Of a DNA stretch of 64,000 nucleotides, positions 3,579 through 35,058 are shown piece by piece. Position 1 is the first letter of the stretch; the number at the start of each line of letters is the position of its first letter. The stretch comes from Anaerolineae bacterium (lineage in GTDB: Bacteria > Chloroflexota > Anaerolineae > Anaerolineales > Anaerolineaceae), in the NCBI GenBank assembly GCA_013314735.1, contig JABUFD010000005.1, positions 62,001-126,000 on the forward strand, given 5' to 3'. A program made the translations under genes and the position numbers. The notes under the pieces were generated by a model. It made no database searches and had not been told where the DNA came from. It worked only from the letters and a program-made list of their open reading frames with translations.

Positions 3579-4397
3579 TTAACTGAACACACCGCGTTCC
3601 ACCAGGATCAGCAGGGTGCTGATCACCACCGTCGCCAGCGGCAGCCATAGGTCGGCCACGCGGAAATGGACATCCTTGACATAGGTGCGGGTGGGAGCGG
3701 TGCCAAAGGCGCGGCAATCGAGGGCCACGGCGGCGGCTTCCGCTTTGCGCAGGCCGTTGATCAGCACGGTAAACATATAGCGCTGCCACAGCTTGAAGCG
3801 GTGCCCCAGTGAGGAGTGCTGTGCCTTGCCGCGGATGGCATGGGCGTCTTTGACTGCTTCCACCTCGCGCTGCGCCAGCGGTAAAAAGCGCATGGCCAGG
3901 AAGACCGTGAACGCCATGCGGTATGGCATGCCCGCCTTGGCAAGTGAGGTCATCAGGTCGCGCGGGTCGGTGGTCCAGATCATTACAAACGAGGCCAGCA
4001 CCACCACCGAGAGCCGGAAGAAGAATACCGGTCCCTGCATCAAACCCGTATCGGTGATTTTCAGGAACCCCACCCGGAAGATTTCCTCGCCGGGGTCCGC
4101 AAAGAAATGGAAGATCATCAGCAGCAACCCCAAACCGAAGATCAACTTGGCCGATCCGAAAATCTGCCGCAGCGGAATTTTGCCTGGCACAGCGGCCAGG
4201 AACAGGATCAGGAGAAAGGCAACCGCGCCGGGCAGCGGGGATTTGTAAATGAACAGGCCCACTGCCACAATCACAACCCAGATCAGCTTCACCAGGGGGT
4301 AGATGCGGTTGAGGGTGGAATGGCGTTCCTTGAATTGGAGCTGGAATCCGTTATCGGCCAATCTGCACCTCCAATCCGAGAGCGTGAATGAAATCAT
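3579..4397 (-). CDS. ECF transporter transmembrane (T) component, CbiQ/EcfT/YkoC family
   Basis: 272 residues with four to five hydrophobic helices in the first 150 residues and at the C-terminus, joined by a long amphipathic cytoplasmic segment. The latter holds an A-V-A-L-D-C-R-A-F-G stretch, equivalent to the A-R-G coupling motifs by which EcfT proteins contact the two ATPases. It overlaps the end of the fused ATPase gene by 47 bases, implying translational coupling. In this family the T component scaffolds the ATPases and the substrate-binding S component; the S gene is the YkoE-like gene of the same operon. Confidence 0.87.
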   Translation of the reverse strand: MISFTLSDWRCRLADNGFQLQFKERHSTLNRIYPLVKLIWVVIVAVGLFIYKSPLPGAVAFLLILFLAAVPGKIPLRQIFGSAKLIFGLGLLLMIFHFFADPGEEIFRVGFLKITDTGLMQGPVFFFRLSVVVLASFVMIWTTDPRDLMTSLAKAGMPYRMAFTVFLAMRFLPLAQREVEAVKDAHAIRGKAQHSSLGHRFKLWQRYMFTVLINGLRKAEAAAVALDCRAFGTAPTRTYVKDVHFRVADLWLPLATVVISTLLILVERGVFS

Positions 4398-6111
4398 GGC
4401 TGTTGCTGATGCGCCCCGTCAGGGTACCTCCCGATTGCAGATAGCGGTGCAGCATTTCTTCCAGGAGGGTGGGGCGCAGGTTGGCGCGTGCCACCAGTTC
4501 ATCCTGTACGAACAGGTCGGCGGCGGTACCATCAAACAGTTTTTCACCTTCATTCAGCACCACCACGCGGTCTGCGTATTCCTGTACCAGGCGCATATCG
4601 TGCGAGATCATCACAATGGTCACGTCCTGCCGGCGGATATCTTCCATCAAGGCCATCAGGGTCTGGGTCATTTGTTTGTCCTGGCCGTAGGTGGGTTCAT
4701 CGAGGATCAGGATTTTGGGCTGGCCAACGAGCATGGTGGCCACACCCAGGCGGCGTTTTTTTCCGGCACTGAGTGCAAACGGATGGATGCCGGTACAGTC
4801 ATCCAGTTCCAACTGCTTCAGGGTTTCTGCAATGATCCGTTTTCGTTCGTCATCATCTTCGCAGCCCCGCGCCAACAGGCTGTATTCGATTTCGTCATAG
4901 ACACTATCCGTGAGGAATTGATGTTCTGGGTTCTGGAACACCAATCCCAGGTGGTCAGCGAGCTGGTCGACCTTCCACTCCCGGGCGTTTTTATGCAGGA
5001 TGCGCAATTCGCCTCCGGTGGGTTTGAGCAGGCCGGTCAGCAGTTTGGCAAGGGTGCTTTTGCCAGCTCCGTTGCGCCCGATGATGGCGAGAATTTCCCC
5101 GCGGTAGACTTCAAGGTCAACCCCTTTGAGGGCTTCGAATTCGGCATCGTAAGCGTAGCGCAACCCGCGCGCCCGGATCAATACCTCGTGGGTATGAACT
5201 TCGGGCGGAATGGGTTTCCCGTTCAGGTGGTCTTTCAGGTAACCATAATGCCGCAGTGCATCCAGCATTCCCTGCGCAGTGAAAGGCAGTTCAGATAATT
5301 CACCACCCAGCCCGGTGCGCAGTGCCAGTCCGATCTCAGCGGTTTCTGGCAGCCAGATGCCCAATTCGTGCGTCAGGCGCATGCCGTGTGTCAGCAGCAC
5401 CTCCTGCGGCTTGCCACTGGCGAAGATGCAGCCCTGGTTGAGCACCAGCAGCTGGTCGGCATGGGTCAGCAGGAAATCATCCAGCTCCCGTGTCACCAGC
5501 AGGATCGTCATGCCGCGTTGCCGCAGCTCCAGGATCAACCGGTGCAGGCTGTGAGTGGCGGCGGGATCAAGGTTGGCGGTGGGTTCGTCGAGAACGATCA
5601 TGGCAGGATTCATTGCCAGTACCACGGCCAATCCCAGTTTTTGGATCTGCCCGCCGGAGAGCGCCCATACCAGGTTGGTGCGCTTCTCCTGCAGGTCGGT
5701 CATGTGCAGCAATTCATCCACCACGCGGCGGATTTCATCGGCGTTCATGCGCAAATTTTCCGGCCCAAACGCGATCTCGTCCTCCACGTACAGTGTGGCG
5801 AACATTGTTTCCGGATCCTGGAAAACGTGTCCCACCTGGCGTGACAGGTCGCTGACCGTAAGGGTGGCGGTATCCACACCGTTGAGGAATACGGTCCCTT
5901 CCATTTTACCGCCCAACAGGTGGGGAATTTCTCCGTTGAACAGGCTGCATAGGGTCGATTTTCCCGATCCGCCCGGGCCAACGAGGACATTCAGGGTACC
6001 GGCTTCGATTTGCAGGGAGCAATCCATGAGGGTGGGTTCGGTCTGATTCCAATGCGTGTAGCTTACCCGGTCAACCAGCACCAGGGGGGTTGTGGATTGA
6101 ATTTCTGTCAT
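4351..6111 (-). CDS. ECF transporter fused double ATPase (YkoD-like)
   Basis: 586 residues from the ATG at 6111; a TTG four codons earlier is the alternative start. Two complete ABC domains are fused head to tail. Domain 1 has Walker A GPGGSGKST (45-53), signature LSGGQ and Walker B IVLDEP. Domain 2 has Walker A GRNGAGKST (about 345), signature variant LSAGKKRR and Walker B LILDEP. Fusion of the A and A' ATPases is typical of YkoD-type ECF transporters, which pair with a YkoE S component and a YkoC T component, exactly the neighbours seen here. It powers vitamin or precursor uptake. YkoEDC of Bacillus is linked to thiamine-precursor (HMP) uptake; transfer of that specificity here is only an inference. 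Confidence 0.93.
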   Translation of the reverse strand: MTEIQSTTPLVLVDRVSYTHWNQTEPTLMDCSLQIEAGTLNVLVGPGGSGKSTLCSLFNGEIPHLLGGKMEGTVFLNGVDTATLTVSDLSRQVGHVFQDPETMFATLYVEDEIAFGPENLRMNADEIRRVVDELLHMTDLQEKRTNLVWALSGGQIQKLGLAVVLAMNPAMIVLDEPTANLDPAATHSLHRLILELRQRGMTILLVTRELDDFLLTHADQLLVLNQGCIFASGKPQEVLLTHGMRLTHELGIWLPETAEIGLALRTGLGGELSELPFTAQGMLDALRHYGYLKDHLNGKPIPPEVHTHEVLIRARGLRYAYDAEFEALKGVDLEVYRGEILAIIGRNGAGKSTLAKLLTGLLKPTGGELRILHKNAREWKVDQLADHLGLVFQNPEHQFLTDSVYDEIEYSLLARGCEDDDERKRIIAETLKQLELDDCTGIHPFALSAGKKRRLGVATMLVGQPKILILDEPTYGQDKQMTQTLMALMEDIRRQDVTIVMISHDMRLVQEYADRVVVLNEGEKLFDGTAADLFVQDELVARANLRPTLLEEMLHRYLQSGGTLTGRISNSHDFIHALGLEVQIGR

Positions 6112-6205
6112 TGTTCGTTTCAAGTTCCTACCATTTGAAAGTATACGGCAGGCAGTCTCTTGCCAGGCAGGCTGCCTGCTCTATTCTCTCATAGTACTGT
6201 GCAGA

Positions 6206-6260: not shown

Positions 6261-6809
6261 TTATTTCGCGGAACGCACCAGGCCGGTTTTGGCAACCGCT
6301 TTGGCGAGGTAATACCCCAGCAAACCACTGAGGATGGCGCCAGAAATCAGGTTGATCGGCACAGCCAGCCAGACATCTTTGGCATAGGACGGATCCCAGC
6401 CATAGAAAATGGCGGTCCAAACCGTTCCGAACTGTGAGGCAGCCGCGCCGGCGGCAATTGCCGACCAGATCGAGTAGTTTTTCCACTGGCCGAACGCCAT
6501 GACAATCTCGATCGCCAGGCCCTGGGTGATGCCCCAGCCGATGGTGCCGATGCCGGAGGCATTGCCCAGTAGGATTTCCACAGAAGTTTCGATGATGCCG
6601 ATCACCAGGGCAGCACCGGGTTTGCGCACCAGCCATACTGCCAGCACGTATGCCCACATGAAGGCGCCTTGCAGGAGGGCACCACCCAACGGGCCGAGTG
6701 AGCTGTTGGCGGCATACCAGATATTACCAGTGCCGGTGTTCACCACGCCAGCGATGGCGGCAATCACCGCGAGGATGACGATGTCACGGGTTGTGTATTT
6801 TAATTTCAT
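6261..6809 (-). CDS. ECF transporter substrate-binding (S) component, YkoE-like
   Basis: 182 residues from the ATG at 6809, which has GGAG 8 bases upstream; an ATG 12 codons earlier lacks a ribosome site. Highly hydrophobic with about five to six helices. The pattern N-T-x-T-G-N-I-W-Y near residue 22, G-A-x-M-W-A-Y, and E-x-x-x-x-x-L-G-N-A-S-G near 78 fits YkoE-type S components. It is encoded with its own ATPase and T genes, so this is a dedicated (group I) ECF transporter. YkoE relatives are usually predicted to take up hydroxymethylpyrimidine or thiamine-related compounds, but no TPP riboswitch is visible here, and the first gene of the operon is an MtmB-like methyltransferase, which suggests a methylated nitrogen compound as another possibility. 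Confidence 0.82.
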   Translation of the reverse strand: MKLKYTTRDIVILAVIAAIAGVVNTGTGNIWYAANSSLGPLGGALLQGAFMWAYVLAVWLVRKPGAALVIGIIETSVEILLGNASGIGTIGWGITQGLAIEIVMAFGQWKNYSIWSAIAAGAAASQFGTVWTAIFYGWDPSYAKDVWLAVPINLISGAILSGLLGYYLAKAVAKTGLVRSAK

Positions 6810-6868
6810 TTCAAGTTCTCCATGGGTTTTCGATTGATGGTCCAACAGGTGTAACGAATCCGGTTCAA

Positions 6869-6949
6869 TTACGATTCTTTTGGCAGCAGATTGGCCACCA
6901 ACCCCAGTACCGCCACAATGGCAAGGTTAACGAGGATGTACAGTACCAT
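6869..6949 (-). CDS. Candidate 26-residue single-helix membrane peptide
   Basis: I read MVLYILVNLAIVAVLGLVAN followed by LLPKES and a stop. It has a strong ribosome site (AAAAGGAGAG, five bases before ATG). Residues 2-22 form one continuous hydrophobic helix, ending with a short polar tail. It sits in the operon between the MtmB-like gene (69 bases before) and the YkoE-like S component (59 bases after). Tiny membrane proteins are known to act as accessory subunits of transporters; a role with this ECF system is inference. The coding case rests on ribosome site, hydrophobic pattern and position. Confidence 0.6.
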   Translation of the reverse strand: MVLYILVNLAIVAVLGLVANLLPKES

Positions 6950-7018: not shown

Positions 7019-8392
7019 TTACACCGGCAATCCCATGTCACAGACCTCATTTTTTACCGTTTGATAGATGTCCAGCCATTCCGCGCTGGGCTGGATGGTT
7101 TGCAGATGGTAGGCTTCGGTAAACGGTTTACCGGGGTTGCCGCCTTTTTGCTTGAAGATGGGCTCATAGCGCTCCAGCAGGCGCAGGATGATGTGATTGA
7201 CACCTGCCCGGTCGAGGCCCTGGCGGGTAACGGCATGCCCCACCTCTCCCATCCAACGTGCTTCGAGGCCGGTACCATGCGGCAAAGCGCCATCGGCGGA
7301 ACCCACGCCTTCCAGGTGGGCACCGCTGACCGTGAGCGCGGCAGCATTGGCAGCGACTTCATACAGCAATTCGTGGGTCACGGCACCGCTCTTGGGGTAG
7401 ATATCACCCACGATGATGCAGGGAGCGTTACGGGCGAAAGCCTGCGATACGGCGCTCTGCACCCATAATACCTCACGGGTGGAGGTGGCCACATGCCGGA
7501 TGTGGATCGGGTGCAGCAGGTGGTAATCCGCCCAGCACACCCAGTTGGCTGCGATGAATGACGCCGCCTGAACCAACGCCGCGCCGGGCGGGCCGCCTGC
7601 CAAACCGCCCACCATGACTGTGGCGAGCGAGGCATTGCGAAAGCCAATTTCCATCGAGTTCATCACCCGCGCCATGTTGCTCTGGTCGATGATCAGTTCG
7701 TTGAACATCGCCACCAGGTGGGCATCATGCGGACGCAGGTAATCGGGATGGGCAACCGCCAGGTCACCGATTTCGGTGACACTGCTCTCCGCCCCCAACA
7801 AGCCCATATCGGGGCGGCCAACGCGGCGCAGCCCTTCGCGCAGGTAACTCAATTCACGGCGCAGGGCGGCGATCTCAATGGGAGCGCCGGTGATGATCGG
7901 GTAGCCGTCAATATGGGTCAATGAGCCGCAGGTTGCCAGGTCCACAATCGGTTCCTGCATCCAGGAGATGACGGATGGCAGGAAAATTTCCTCCGGCGTG
8001 GGGCAGCCCGGGTTGCCAGCCCACACCAGCGGGGCACGCGCATCCTGCACTTTGCGCGCATAGAGGGTGCGCGCGTCCTTGCCTGAACCCATCACCAGGG
8101 TTTGGGGCACACGCCGCAGGCCATCGAGCAATTCATCGCGGGTGAAGCGGATCACCCGGTTTTCCGGCGCGGCCAACACACCAATCGTTTCCACCAGCTG
8201 AAGGGCGGCAGCAAACAGGCGATCCAGCATGGCATCATCGGTGGGGATGATCTCCTGCCGGTCCCATGCCAGGTTATATTTCTCCACCAGGGTGAGGACG
8301 GTCATCATCACCTTTTCCTGGTCCCATTCTGCTTTTTCGATTTTGGTGCCATGGTTGGCGCGCTCTAGAATTTCCAGATATCGATGGATCAT
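7019..8392 (-). CDS. MtmB-family (monomethylamine methyltransferase-like) protein lacking pyrrolysine
   Basis: 457 residues from the ATG at 8392 (GAGAAG just upstream); an upstream in-frame ATG at 8527 would add a non-homologous leader that runs through the terminator-like hairpin. Length and collinear motifs match archaeal MtmB (about 458 residues): opening M-I-H-R-Y-L, I-P-T-D near residue 49, G-R-P-D-M-G, H-I-R-x-x-x-T-x-T-R-E near two thirds, and G-x-E-A-R-W-M-G-E near 395. In archaeal MtmB the catalytic pyrrolysine (in-frame UAG) follows G-M-G-V; here the segment reads G-L-L-G-A-E with TTG, leucine, at that position. The fold (TIM barrel that methylates a corrinoid protein) should be kept, but chemistry on monomethylamine is unlikely. 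By analogy with non-pyrrolysine MttB relatives, which demethylate quaternary amines such as glycine betaine, a different methyl donor is inferred. No corrinoid protein gene is adjacent. Confidence 0.8.
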   Translation of the reverse strand: MIHRYLEILERANHGTKIEKAEWDQEKVMMTVLTLVEKYNLAWDRQEIIPTDDAMLDRLFAAALQLVETIGVLAAPENRVIRFTRDELLDGLRRVPQTLVMGSGKDARTLYARKVQDARAPLVWAGNPGCPTPEEIFLPSVISWMQEPIVDLATCGSLTHIDGYPIITGAPIEIAALRRELSYLREGLRRVGRPDMGLLGAESSVTEIGDLAVAHPDYLRPHDAHLVAMFNELIIDQSNMARVMNSMEIGFRNASLATVMVGGLAGGPPGAALVQAASFIAANWVCWADYHLLHPIHIRHVATSTREVLWVQSAVSQAFARNAPCIIVGDIYPKSGAVTHELLYEVAANAAALTVSGAHLEGVGSADGALPHGTGLEARWMGEVGHAVTRQGLDRAGVNHIILRLLERYEPIFKQKGGNPGKPFTEAYHLQTIQPSAEWLDIYQTVKNEVCDMGLPV

Positions 8393-8793
8393 GTCTTCTC
8401 TCGGGGGCTTAAAAAGGAATCGGTCACCTGTGCGGGGCGAAGCTGGCAGGCCAGCGTGCCGGTGGGTGACCGATGCGGGTGGGCTGGGCAGATACCATGC
8501 ACCAGATTGTTGGCCGGTGTATGGCATGATGCTGTAAAAGGCTGTGATTAAGTGCGGATTGATTTCTCATCGTCCTGCGCTCACTGGTAACGGTAGGCAG
8601 ATCTTCCCTTTTACCTTGATTCAATGGGTGTCCTGGGGAGAAAAGCGACTGCTTTCCGGGCTTGTCTGAACAAGATCAACGATGTCAACTATAACATACA
8701 GGTTGATTTTTTGACCAGCGTTTTCGCCATGGCAGTGAAAATTTTAAGATCGACTACAATTCCGTTAAGGTGGGTGCCAGGCTTCAACGGGCG
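8393..8793 (-). promoter_or_regulatory. Long leader of the MtmB-like/ECF operon, possible unclassified riboswitch or peptide leader
   Basis: This 400-base gap holds the attenuator hairpin at 8419-8474 and a possible promoter (TGGTCA at 8712-8717, 18-base spacer, TATAGT at 8688-8693, read leftward), giving a leader of roughly 290 bases. I looked for and did not find TPP, cobalamin, SAM or T-box hallmarks. An in-frame 48-codon ORF (8570 down to 8424, five His in its first 19 residues) ends inside the terminator stem; its ribosome site is poorly spaced, so a peptide-leader mechanism is only a possibility. Confidence 0.4.
8419..8474 (-). terminator. Attenuator-like hairpin upstream of the MtmB-like gene
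   Basis: On the minus strand a perfect 10-base stem (ATCGGTCACC with GGTGACCGAT) encloses an inner GCTGG/CCAGC hairpin with a four-base loop. It is followed directly by TCCTTTTT and, 26 bases on, by the start codon. An intrinsic terminator between promoter and first gene is the hallmark of transcription attenuation. Confidence 0.65.
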
Positions 8794-10566
8794 TTACGGC
8801 AGGATGATGCGGACAATACCCCGCACCGCATTCAGCACCTGCACCACTGAACCGGGCGGTAATTGCAGGTGAAAGGTAATGCGGTTCGCGCGCAGCTGCT
8901 CCGTGCTCAAGGTCAACCCGCGCCCTGCGCCACTGATGGCGTCTTCAATCGCGCCGGTGTCCAGCTCGCTGTCATAATCGAAGTTCAGGTCGATCGAGCC
9001 GTCACTTTCGTCGATTTGGAGGTCTATCAAGCTGTTGAGGGTCAGGATGGTGGGCAATTCATCTACGGTGGTGAGGGTTTCCACAGTCACGGGACTTGCC
9101 AGGTAGGGGTTTTCGGTGCAAATGCCGTCTGATAGATAAAGGGTGTAGGTACTGGTTGCTTCATTGTGTAACACGGTGGATGCCGGCGGCAGTGCGATTA
9201 ACAATCCGCCCTCGGCGGCTGGCAATACCATACCGCCTGCGCCGAGGGTGAGTTCGGTTTGCAGGAAGGGGACAAGTGCATTGACAAGCATCACATTCAA
9301 CCCGCCATCCGGACTGGTGCTGTAGGCAAACCCGATTCCTTGCGGCACCAGCAGCGCGGCATTGCCGCTCTCTGTTTGCGTGATTTCCATGCCTTCATAC
9401 GCCGGGATCACCTGCTCGCAGGGGTCGTAAAGGGCCGTTGATTCGGCATACATCGATTCTGGCAATGCGCAGCGGAAACCGATTGAATCGGCGGCCAATC
9501 CCATCGGGACCGCCTGGCGGTGCCAGCTGAGGGCAGCTTCGGGAGTATCCGCCCAGGAACCGCCGCGGACCACGCCAATATCGGAAGAGAGTACCGGGCC
9601 AAAGGGATCCACCGGGTCAGAGCGCTGATAATACGCAGGGTCAAACACATCCACCACCCACTCCGCCACATTCCCGCCCATATCCAGCGTGAAATAGTAA
9701 CTGCTGCCATCGGGGAAAATTCCCACAGGCGCAGTATGCTCGAATCCATCATTTTGCTCGCGCAGGTTCAGGCGCATCTGGAAGGTGGTGTCATCCCCCC
9801 AGGGGAAATTGGAGGCGGTATCGCCACGTGCGGCACGTTCCCATTGGGCTTCACTGGGCAACGTGCGCCCGGCCCAGGCGCAGTAGGCGGCGGCATCGGC
9901 GCGGGTGACCTGGGTTACGGGAAGATCAGGTGCGGCTGCAGCGCCATCACCGAGTGGCATACGCCAATCAGCATTTTCGGTGAGCACATATTGCCCGCTT
10001 TGAAAAGTGTACGCTCCGGCTGTTGCGGCTTCGGCCTGGGTCTGGTACCGGGTGGCATTCACGAATTGCTGGTATTGAGCCACAGTCACCTCGGTTTCAT
10101 CGATCCAATAAGCGCTGAGCTGGATGATGTGCAACGGCTGGTCAGCCGCAAAAAATTCAGGTTCGCCGCACCTTTCGCAGAATTTCCAGGCATCCTCGGC
10201 CTGGCTGGCGCTGGCGCCCATGCGGAAACTACCTGGGGGCACGCATTGCAGGTTCATACCATCAATGGGGGAAGCCCAACTTTGACCGAGGTCGGTGCAG
10301 GGCGGGGGTGTGGGCAGGGACTGGATTGGATTAACCGGTGTTTCCGTCACAGCCGGTGTGGGGTCGGGCAGTACTGGTTCGGTGGAGACGCTTTCTATCA
10401 CTGCTGTTTCCTGCGGGGTGGCTTGCTGCAGGGCGGCCTGGCTGGTGGCCTCGAGGATGGTCTGGGCGGTGGGAACCGGCGTTGACAGCGGTTTGCAGGC
10501 TGCAATGGAGAGGACAGTGAGGAAAAAGGTGACGCATTGTATCGAAAATGCTCCTGTTTTTTTCAT
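8794..10566 (-). CDS. Lipoprotein with SUMF1/formylglycine-enzyme-like domain, catalytically divergent
   Basis: About 590 residues from the second of two adjacent ATGs (GGGAG lies 7 bases before it). A signal peptide ends with lipobox S-I-A-A-C, so the protein should be membrane-anchored outside. A Pro/Thr/Glu-rich spacer leads into a SUMF1/FGE-sulfatase domain (about residues 85-330) with typical landmarks: W-I-D-E-T-E-V-T, A-Y-C-A-W-A-G-R-x-L-P-S-E-A-Q-W-E-R-A-A-R-G, M-G-G-N-V-A-E-W-V, R-G-G-S-W, G-F-R-C. The two cysteines that bind copper in true formylglycine-generating enzymes, just after R-G-G-S-W, are absent (A-D-T-P-E instead), so it probably binds a ligand rather than oxidising cysteine. 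The C-terminal 250 residues are a beta-rich region I do not recognise. Tandem repeats upstream suggest dedicated regulation. Confidence 0.82.
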   Translation of the reverse strand: MKKTGAFSIQCVTFFLTVLSIAACKPLSTPVPTAQTILEATSQAALQQATPQETAVIESVSTEPVLPDPTPAVTETPVNPIQSLPTPPPCTDLGQSWASPIDGMNLQCVPPGSFRMGASASQAEDAWKFCERCGEPEFFAADQPLHIIQLSAYWIDETEVTVAQYQQFVNATRYQTQAEAATAGAYTFQSGQYVLTENADWRMPLGDGAAAAPDLPVTQVTRADAAAYCAWAGRTLPSEAQWERAARGDTASNFPWGDDTTFQMRLNLREQNDGFEHTAPVGIFPDGSSYYFTLDMGGNVAEWVVDVFDPAYYQRSDPVDPFGPVLSSDIGVVRGGSWADTPEAALSWHRQAVPMGLAADSIGFRCALPESMYAESTALYDPCEQVIPAYEGMEITQTESGNAALLVPQGIGFAYSTSPDGGLNVMLVNALVPFLQTELTLGAGGMVLPAAEGGLLIALPPASTVLHNEATSTYTLYLSDGICTENPYLASPVTVETLTTVDELPTILTLNSLIDLQIDESDGSIDLNFDYDSELDTGAIEDAISGAGRGLTLSTEQLRANRITFHLQLPPGSVVQVLNAVRGIVRIILP

Positions 10567-10892
10567 CATATTGCTCCCTTTCTGAAACAGAATCATGCCT
10601 CCTGCCGATTATGATCCGGATGGATTATTATCCATTTGGATCATGATCCTTTTGGATTATAGCATGCGATACCACGGTCAGGACTGGCCATTCAATGACA
10701 GTTCTGCAAAGCATGGTTGCGTTTGATCAGCCTGGATGAACCGGCTGCTTCGACCTTTGTCAACCGCTGAAAGTGATTCCCATAATCTTTTCATTCCGTG
10801 TATAATTACAGCGCGCAGCACACCAGCCGGAACCTGGATGAATGTAGTTCCGCGCTCGATGTTGCTGCGGCCGGAAAGGTGATTAAAGGTAG
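10567..10892. promoter_or_regulatory. Divergent intergenic region with typA promoter
   Basis: Apart from the 16-bp repeats, the right half holds a TATAAT (10801-10806) with a weak TTCCCA -35 element 18 bases upstream, fitting transcription of the rightward typA gene with an untranslated leader of about 80 bases. An AAAGG ribosome site lies just before 10893. I see no small ORF or RNA gene here. Confidence 0.5.
10614..10661. repeat. Three tandem 16-bp operator-like repeats, consensus ATCCnnnTGGATnATn
   Basis: Units start at 10614, 10630 and 10646, exactly 16 bases apart; a partial unit precedes them. Each contains an ATCC...GGAT inverted repeat (spacer 0 or 4 bases). The array is 48 bases upstream of the SUMF1 lipoprotein start, in the promoter position for that leftward gene. 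Regular half-sites on nearly the same helix face suggest cooperative binding of a regulator, unidentified. Confidence 0.6.
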
Positions 10893-34860: not shown

Positions 34861-34998
34861 TGGTACAACTGAACGCCGAACCTGTCGCAGGACGGGGGAG
34901 TGGAAACATCGGGGCGAATCGCCAGACCGGAGACGGAAGGCGTAGGGCGCATCTTCCGTCCGAGTCCGTCAGCTAACCTCGCAGGCGTCGAAGAACCA
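34861..34998 (+). ncRNA. Cyclic di-AMP riboswitch (ydaO/yuaA class)
   Basis: The hallmark stretches of the ydaO class occur in order: GCCGAACC near 34875, GACGGGGGAG near 34891, CGGGGCGAAT near 34910, and CCGTCAGCTAACCTCG ending near 34981, followed by AGGCG. Closing pairs TGGT/ACCA (34861-34864 with 34995-34998) and GCC/GGC form P1. Downstream, CCAGGC (34996-35001) can pair with GCCTGG (35026-35031), using the same ACCA strand as P1, and CGAAGAA (34989-34995) can pair with the TTCTTCG just before the ribosome site. These exclusive pairings give a plausible expression platform acting on translation. The class normally turns genes off when c-di-AMP is high. Confidence 0.85.
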
Positions 34999-35058
34999 GG
35001 CCCGTATAGCAATGCTTGCGGGTTCGCCTGGCAGTATGATTCTTCGGCAGAGGTAGGC

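Follow-up and report, generated by a model that had tools for sequence, protein, structure and literature searches.

A pyrrolysine-free MtmB-family protein conserved beside a YkoE-type ECF importer in Anaerolineae

The window, a 64,000-nucleotide stretch of an Anaerolineae genome assembly (contig JABUFD010000005.1), contains a gene for a 457-residue non-pyrrolysine member of the MtmB family (PF05369) at positions 7019–8392 on the minus strand, which is predicted to be a methyl donor:corrinoid protein methyltransferase. The ORF starts with an ATG at 8392, and a second ATG is present in the same open frame at 8527. The original prediction of a full-length MtmB homologue is borne out by a match to positions 5–450 of the 450-position PF05369 profile (334.7 bits against a cut-off of 25, E 1.1e-99) and by matches to 1L2Q and 1TV2 over 445 residues (E about 1e-65), with 1L2Q the best relative in the PDB. 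The leucine predicted at the pyrrolysine position is likewise present: HMMER and MAFFT alignments agree in placing Leu199, encoded by a TTG codon at 7796–7798 on the minus strand, opposite residue 202 of MtmB1, the pyrrolysine of MtmB (PMC9842639). A pyrrolysine-type MtmB would have an in-frame UAG, read as pyrrolysine, at this site. A structure prediction based on 11 sequences has a mean pLDDT of 66, with residues 181–264 and others below 50, and was set aside. Among the further residues that we take to line the MtmB site, the alignment replaces Glu259 with Leu256 and Gln333 with Asp330, and retains Tyr335 as Tyr332. Upstream of the operon, the minus strand also carries an ORF with an FGE-sulfatase domain (8794–10596).

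Three ECF genes follow downstream of the MtmB-like gene on the same strand. The S component is YkoE-type by Pfam (PF09819; 194 residues, 6261–6845, minus strand), with an uncertain start and an internal ATG 12 codons in, and its single PDB match is Bacillus subtilis YkoE (5EDL). The 590-residue A component (4351–6123, minus strand) consists of two fused ATPase domains, visible as two ABC_tran stretches and as matches above cut-off to TIGR04520 and TIGR04521. The CbiQ-like T component (272 residues, 3579–4397, minus strand) matches PF02361 with an E-value of 2.9e-33 and TIGR02454 under its cut-off, and its gene shares 47 bp with the A gene. With S, a fused double A and T in one operon, the cassette belongs to the group I ECF importers of the YkoEDC type. 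A scan for promoters and terminators gave results close to those for shuffled sequences (4 versus 2.4 and 5 versus 5.5, respectively).

The complete YkoE-type importer described in the original prediction is thus present in all three components, and a 26-codon ORF between the methyltransferase and S genes had been missed. This mini-gene (6869–6949, minus strand) encodes a membrane peptide with one hydrophobic stretch, and its ATG is preceded by a good ribosome-binding site, AAAAGGAGAG. The peptide resembles the N-terminal stretch of longer S components: it is separate at 7 of 21 loci, including the window, and fused at the other 14. Across the seven separate copies, the counts of changes at the first, second and third codon positions are 174, 73 and 296, as for coding sequence. 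CbiN and NikN are small subunits of metal ECF importers; we know of no described subunit of such a kind for YkoE-type importers, and none appeared among the papers listed by a literature search on small ECF and YkoE-type subunits. A 26-residue helix that stands alone in one branch and is joined to the S component in another would represent a small new ECF subunit.

The MtmB-like protein falls in a clade of 29 tree rows with support of 100/99. The counterpart of Pyl202 is leucine in 28 of these rows and methionine in one; the counterparts of residues 259 and 333 are leucine and aspartate in all 29, and that of residue 335 is tyrosine in 27 and phenylalanine in two. Because MtmB1 sits on a branch of length 1.7, the direction of the change at the pyrrolysine site (loss or gain) cannot be read from the tree. 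No in-frame TAG is present in any of the listed MtmB homologues of the class and order, and PylS was detected above its curated cut-off in none of 380 genomes of the order, the genome containing the window included. Weak PylS matches below the cut-off occur in 230 of the 380 genomes, and the window genome has not even one of these, in keeping with the original view that no pyrrolysine pathway is needed. The window protein is the sole PF05369 match in this 4.09 Mb, 95.5% complete genome, and a search of the same genome for MttB found none.

The specificity of the association was assessed with draws of 400 genomes of the order, searched with the MtmB-like protein and then, in a draw of 400 whose genome handles agree with the first, with the S component. 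Clade members were defined by at least 50% identity to the MtmB-like protein, including partial genes and excluding a 28-residue fragment in G537; the S-component subfamily was defined by at least 55% identity, and the next match falls to 37%. Duplicates were counted once (L007 is G715, L008 is G517, L009 is G713, L010 is G687, L011 and L032 are G278, and L015 is G745). A clade MtmB-like protein was found in 28 of 400 genomes and the S-component subfamily in 20 of 400, each of the 20 S genes lying within 350 bp of a clade MtmB-like gene, in G660 in divergent orientation. Since all 20 are found beside such a gene, the S subfamily acts like a dedicated partner. The gene pairing around this pyrrolysine-free MtmB-family protein is real, conserved and specific. 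Chance as its source was ruled out by both 400-genome searches. The pairing is not universal, and the idea that these homologues always stand beside YkoE-type ECF genes did not hold: only 20 of the 28 clade genomes show it, the other eight, from assemblies that are not all complete, having no S component of this subfamily. The S-component match at 37% identity (G647) also adjoins an MtmB homologue, this one of another subfamily, in the order MtxC–MtmB–S–A–T with a divergent YkoE-type cassette, and MtmB-type proteins thus appear to be paired with YkoE-type importers in two lineages.

Corrinoid protein genes are frequent in the neighborhoods of the family. The survey covered 46 MtmB loci of about 12–21 kb (25 from the clade, 21 from other MtmB homologues) and 20 control regions, which were hand-picked from genomes with MtmB loci, some on the same contigs, and one of which contains RamA. 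A corrinoid protein gene is present in 17 of the 25 clade loci, all 21 of the others and none of the controls. It is also present in each of four more loci of at least 12 kb outside the survey (L068, L133, L145 and L146), the last three having been left out because their contigs were already represented. The gene order in family f2 is MtxC–MtmB–S–A–T, followed in several genomes by Virulence_fact-, RamA- and HcyMT-type (homocysteine methyltransferase) genes, representatives of which were named by Pfam; G280, G603 and G615 have all three after the cassette. In G660 (locus L122), which with L007 provides the tree rows nearest to the window and whose MtmB is 62% identical to that of the window, the row is MtmB–MtxC–HcyMT–f43–RamA and the ECF genes are divergent. 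The f43 gene (L122:6627–7325, also present in L146) encodes a 232-residue protein with no Pfam match, lies between the HcyMT and RamA genes, and is possibly a corrinoid reactivation protein or a partner subunit.

No corrinoid protein gene adjoins the MtmB-like gene in the window, and the G660 locus is the only one of the 10 tree rows in the window protein's sub-branch to have one beside MtmB. Elsewhere in the window genome, a corrinoid protein (C9:985610–986248; 66% identical to that of G660) adjoins an HcyMT (57%) at C9:984543–986248, the pair carrying DxHxxG and GGCC motifs, and a RamA-type activase 47% identical to that of G660 is encoded at C9:361272–363095. A genome devoid of corrinoid protein genes would have refuted the original prediction, and this is not such a genome. 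A free corrinoid protein beside an HcyMT has the makeup of a folate-independent methionine synthase module. We infer that this module is tied to the MtmB-like protein, and its corrinoid protein is a plausible partner. The status of the pair as a dedicated partner is weakened by how common this corrinoid type is: matches with E-values of 1e-30 or better occur in 264 of 400 genomes, many of which lack a clade MtmB. The window genome also encodes a full-length MetH, in a 1166-residue frame with pterin and cobalamin domains.

Two further features of the window genome were observed. The URO-D family has thirty matches there (G000 contigs C1, C4, C6, C8, C9, C10 and C11), so that proteins resembling MtaA/MtbA or decarboxylases are greatly expanded. 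At L058:8970–12760 (G000:C4, about 152969–156759), genes for a corrinoid protein, a member of the URO-D family and a 690-residue protein follow one another in what looks like another corrinoid methyl-transfer cassette.

The scarcity of adjacent corrinoid genes near the window protein raises the possibility that members of its sub-branch, the window protein included, no longer take part in corrinoid chemistry and instead bind the imported compound or act on it as a lyase or hydrolase. No such gene adjoins MtmB in the window or in any full-length row of the sub-branch but one, MtmB1 has different residues at three of the four site positions compared, and in G650 (97% complete), which has the MtmB–ECF pair, only a MetH-type cobalamin domain and weak corrinoid matches were found, with no free corrinoid protein of the C9 type detected in the search. 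The same site residues are, however, found in relatives that sit with corrinoid proteins, and G660, of the same sub-branch, retains its corrinoid gene row; a departure from corrinoid chemistry is considered very unlikely.

The S component offers some indication of what the importer carries. In the solved structure of YkoE, thiamine is bound by Tyr46, Trp49, Glu77, Gln95 and Asp131, with Trp49, Glu77 and Gln95 on the pyrimidine side (PMC5037267). In all 21 MtmB-linked S components these five positions are Gln, Phe, Glu, Gln and Thr or Ser, so that two of the five are kept: the aminopyrimidine-type hydrogen-bonding pair (Glu77, Gln95) is preserved, the stacking residue is still aromatic, the thiazole side is replaced, and the thiamine site of YkoE is not reproduced. 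Outside the subfamily, nine YkoE-like proteins were compared, leaving out L184 and L198 (G647); L205 keeps Tyr, Trp, Glu and Gln, and the pockets of the remaining eight differ. Neither a TPP nor a cobalamin riboswitch was found at gathering score in the window and 20 related ECF loci, several of whose contigs begin near the MtmB gene; the scan also took in L055, which does not belong to the ECF loci. A c-di-AMP riboswitch is present in the window at 34864–35002 on the plus strand (73.7 bits). Because the thiazole-side residues are replaced and no riboswitch was found, thiamine itself seems an unlikely cargo.

A broader form of this explanation is that what the ECF importer carries is a cofactor, be it a cobamide, a precursor of one, or thiamine/HMP, and that the pairing reflects cofactor supply and not uptake of the donor. 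Vitamins and trace elements are the usual cargo of ECF importers, corrinoid enzymes need a cobamide, the retained pyrimidine ligands Glu77 and Gln95 could be used by HMP as well, and the only PDB match is YkoE, described as the S component for thiamine (PMC5037267). This has to be set against the replacement of Tyr46, Trp49 and Asp131 in 21 of 21 S components and the lack of a riboswitch at gathering score, although a leader could be missing where a contig starts near the MtmB gene. The S subfamily, moreover, is found only beside MtmB (20 of 20), while MetH also occurs in the window genome and in others. Supply of a cofactor is judged unlikely. Together, the S-component pocket and the purine-type genes that occur beside some relatives point tentatively to a methyl donor in preference to a cofactor as the cargo.

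Those purine-type genes are found in 5 of the 10 clade loci without ECF genes, none of the 15 with ECF genes, 10 of the 21 other MtmB loci and none of the 20 controls. The comparison of all MtmB loci with controls (15 of 46 versus 0 of 20) gives a Fisher p of 0.003, which is optimistic because the query families were chosen once these loci had been inspected, the loci are related to one another, and further amidohydrolases are picked up by the amidohydrolase queries. The clade has two clean cases. In L014 a row of BMP/PnrA-type ABC transporter genes leads directly into the MtmB gene, and in L011 the MtmB gene is followed on the same strand by genes for adenine deaminase and a xanthine-dehydrogenase-type enzyme. 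The BMP-type protein of L014 has one NCBIfam match, to a B6 transporter model and below cut-off, and BMP-type proteins carry other solutes too. Three further loci contain other MtmB paralogues, to which their purine-type genes may belong: L120 has divergent BMP transporter, xanthine-dehydrogenase-type and adenosine deaminase genes, L132 has BMP, xanthine-dehydrogenase-type and deaminase genes, and L012 has a 5'-deoxyadenosine-deaminase-like gene. BMP transporter, adenosine deaminase and xanthine-dehydrogenase-type genes are also near the genes of the clade's sister pair (L138 and L144). It was further observed that genomes G559 and G486 (L120, L132, L133 and L146) each carry several paralogues of MtmB, in clusters with genes for BMP transporters, xanthine-dehydrogenase-type enzymes and deaminases, and that the G486 cluster also holds an MttB-type protein.

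Judging from these neighborhoods, the ECF importer may take the place of a nucleoside-type importer, and the donor may be nucleobase-like. A separate lead comes from three clade loci (L007, L122 and L140) that contain an IF-2B gene by Pfam, which we take to be MtnA (methylthioribose-1-phosphate isomerase), and which make methylthioadenosine a candidate methyl donor. Small proteins encoded near the MtmB–ECF locus at L007:19760–20777 look like bacterial microcompartment pentamers.

The neighboring genes also bear on the possibility that the enzyme is an MtqB-like methyltransferase for quaternary amines such as choline or tetramethylammonium, with the ECF importer taking up the amine. To our knowledge there are no ECF importers of choline-like amines. 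The genes noticed beside relatives are of purine type and not recognizably of choline type, the search queries having covered purine-type families, and no MtqC-like gene adjoins the window gene at 7019–8392. MtqB does provide a precedent, as it is reported to be a non-pyrrolysine MtmB homologue with such activity (PMC13044021); a quaternary amine is here regarded as an unlikely substrate.

The explanation that we lean towards, with fair but far from full confidence, is a pyrrolysine-free corrinoid methyltransferase that is fed by a dedicated group I ECF importer bringing in its methyl donor. The fold family, the leucine at the pyrrolysine site, the conserved pairing, and the corrinoid protein, activase and HcyMT in the genome are observed, and the remaining steps would be as follows. 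The importer (S component, accessory membrane helix, fused ATPases and T component) would take up a scarce methylated small molecule, which the MtmB-like barrel would bind near Leu199, Leu256, Asp330 and Tyr332. The methyl group would then be handed to the Co(I) of a free corrinoid protein, plausibly that encoded on C9, whose cobalt would be kept reduced by the RamA-type activase, and it would end on homocysteine, giving methionine, or on folate. The roles of the cargo as methyl donor and of the C9 protein as partner, and the identity of the acceptor, are inferred.

In a more specific and quite tentative version, one judged less likely than not, the enzyme would demethylate an imported N-methylated nucleobase- or nucleoside-like heterocycle and pass the methyl group through the corrinoid protein to homocysteine, with either an ECF or a BMP-type nucleoside importer according to lineage. 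The donor could, for instance, be a methylated and cationic purine or pyrimidine released by RNA turnover, and the process would be an anaerobic, corrinoid-dependent form of methyl salvage from modified nucleobases. A conserved, dedicated importer makes the substrate directly testable through the ligand of the S component. Should the cargo prove to be a methylated nucleobase, corrinoid metabolism would gain a new class of methyl donor in Chloroflexota, members of which are known here mostly from metagenome assemblies.

A full-text search of the open-licence literature returned no paper joining MtmB and 'ECF transporter', and the pairing was the subject of no title or abstract opening among the papers listed on non-pyrrolysine MtmB, Anaerolineae methylamine methyltransferases, methylated purines with corrinoid enzymes, or monomethylamine methyltransferase with nucleoside transport. 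The MtmB–ECF pairing appears to be new; a non-pyrrolysine MtmB as such is not a first, having already been published. The description of this shift in the MtmB family as little explored holds, but work on MtqB and its activity on tetramethylammonium and choline appeared in 2026 (PMC13044021). That report calls MtqB the first function of a non-pyrrolysine MtmB, and its tree of 1,061 pyrrolysine and non-pyrrolysine MtmBs describes the non-pyrrolysine proteins outside the highlighted clades as of unknown function (PMC13044021).

Compared with the Methanosarcina monomethylamine methyltransferase MtmB1 (1L2Q, 1NTH, 1TV2), the window protein belongs to the same Pfam family over its full length, with 31% identity and the conserved Tyr335, but it is bacterial, has Leu for Pyl202, Leu for Glu259 and Asp for Gln333, and is encoded alongside an ECF cassette. 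MtqB of Methanococcoides methylutens Q3c is, like the window protein, a non-pyrrolysine MtmB homologue, and the methyltransferase reading is backed by its reported methylation of cob(I)alamin from tetramethylammonium, choline and, weakly, monomethylamine, which shows that such proteins can be corrinoid methyltransferases; MtqB differs in its methanogen host, its adjacent MtqC and its quaternary amine substrates (PMC13044021). A bacterial MtmB-superfamily protein without pyrrolysine is also known from 'Ca. Formimonas warabiya' (Ga0180325_111810), where its level was raised on dichloromethane; its function there is putative, and no ECF pairing is mentioned in the passages on it that were considered (PMC9768040). 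The importer resembles YkoEDC of Bacillus subtilis in having S, fused A and T in one operon and in keeping Glu77 and Gln95 (PMC5037267), and differs from it in the changes of Tyr46 to Gln, Trp49 to Phe and Asp131 to Thr or Ser, in that no THI box was found at the loci searched, in its separate or fused N-terminal helix, and in its MtmB neighbor. Finally, the proposed pathway is similar to the MtgC–MtgD–MtgE split methionine synthase and glycine betaine system, in which the free corrinoid protein, the homocysteine-binding subunit and RamA are separate proteins, fed by a PF06253 (MttB-type) protein and by one that binds pterin (PMC12478193), the feeder proposed here being of the MtmB type.
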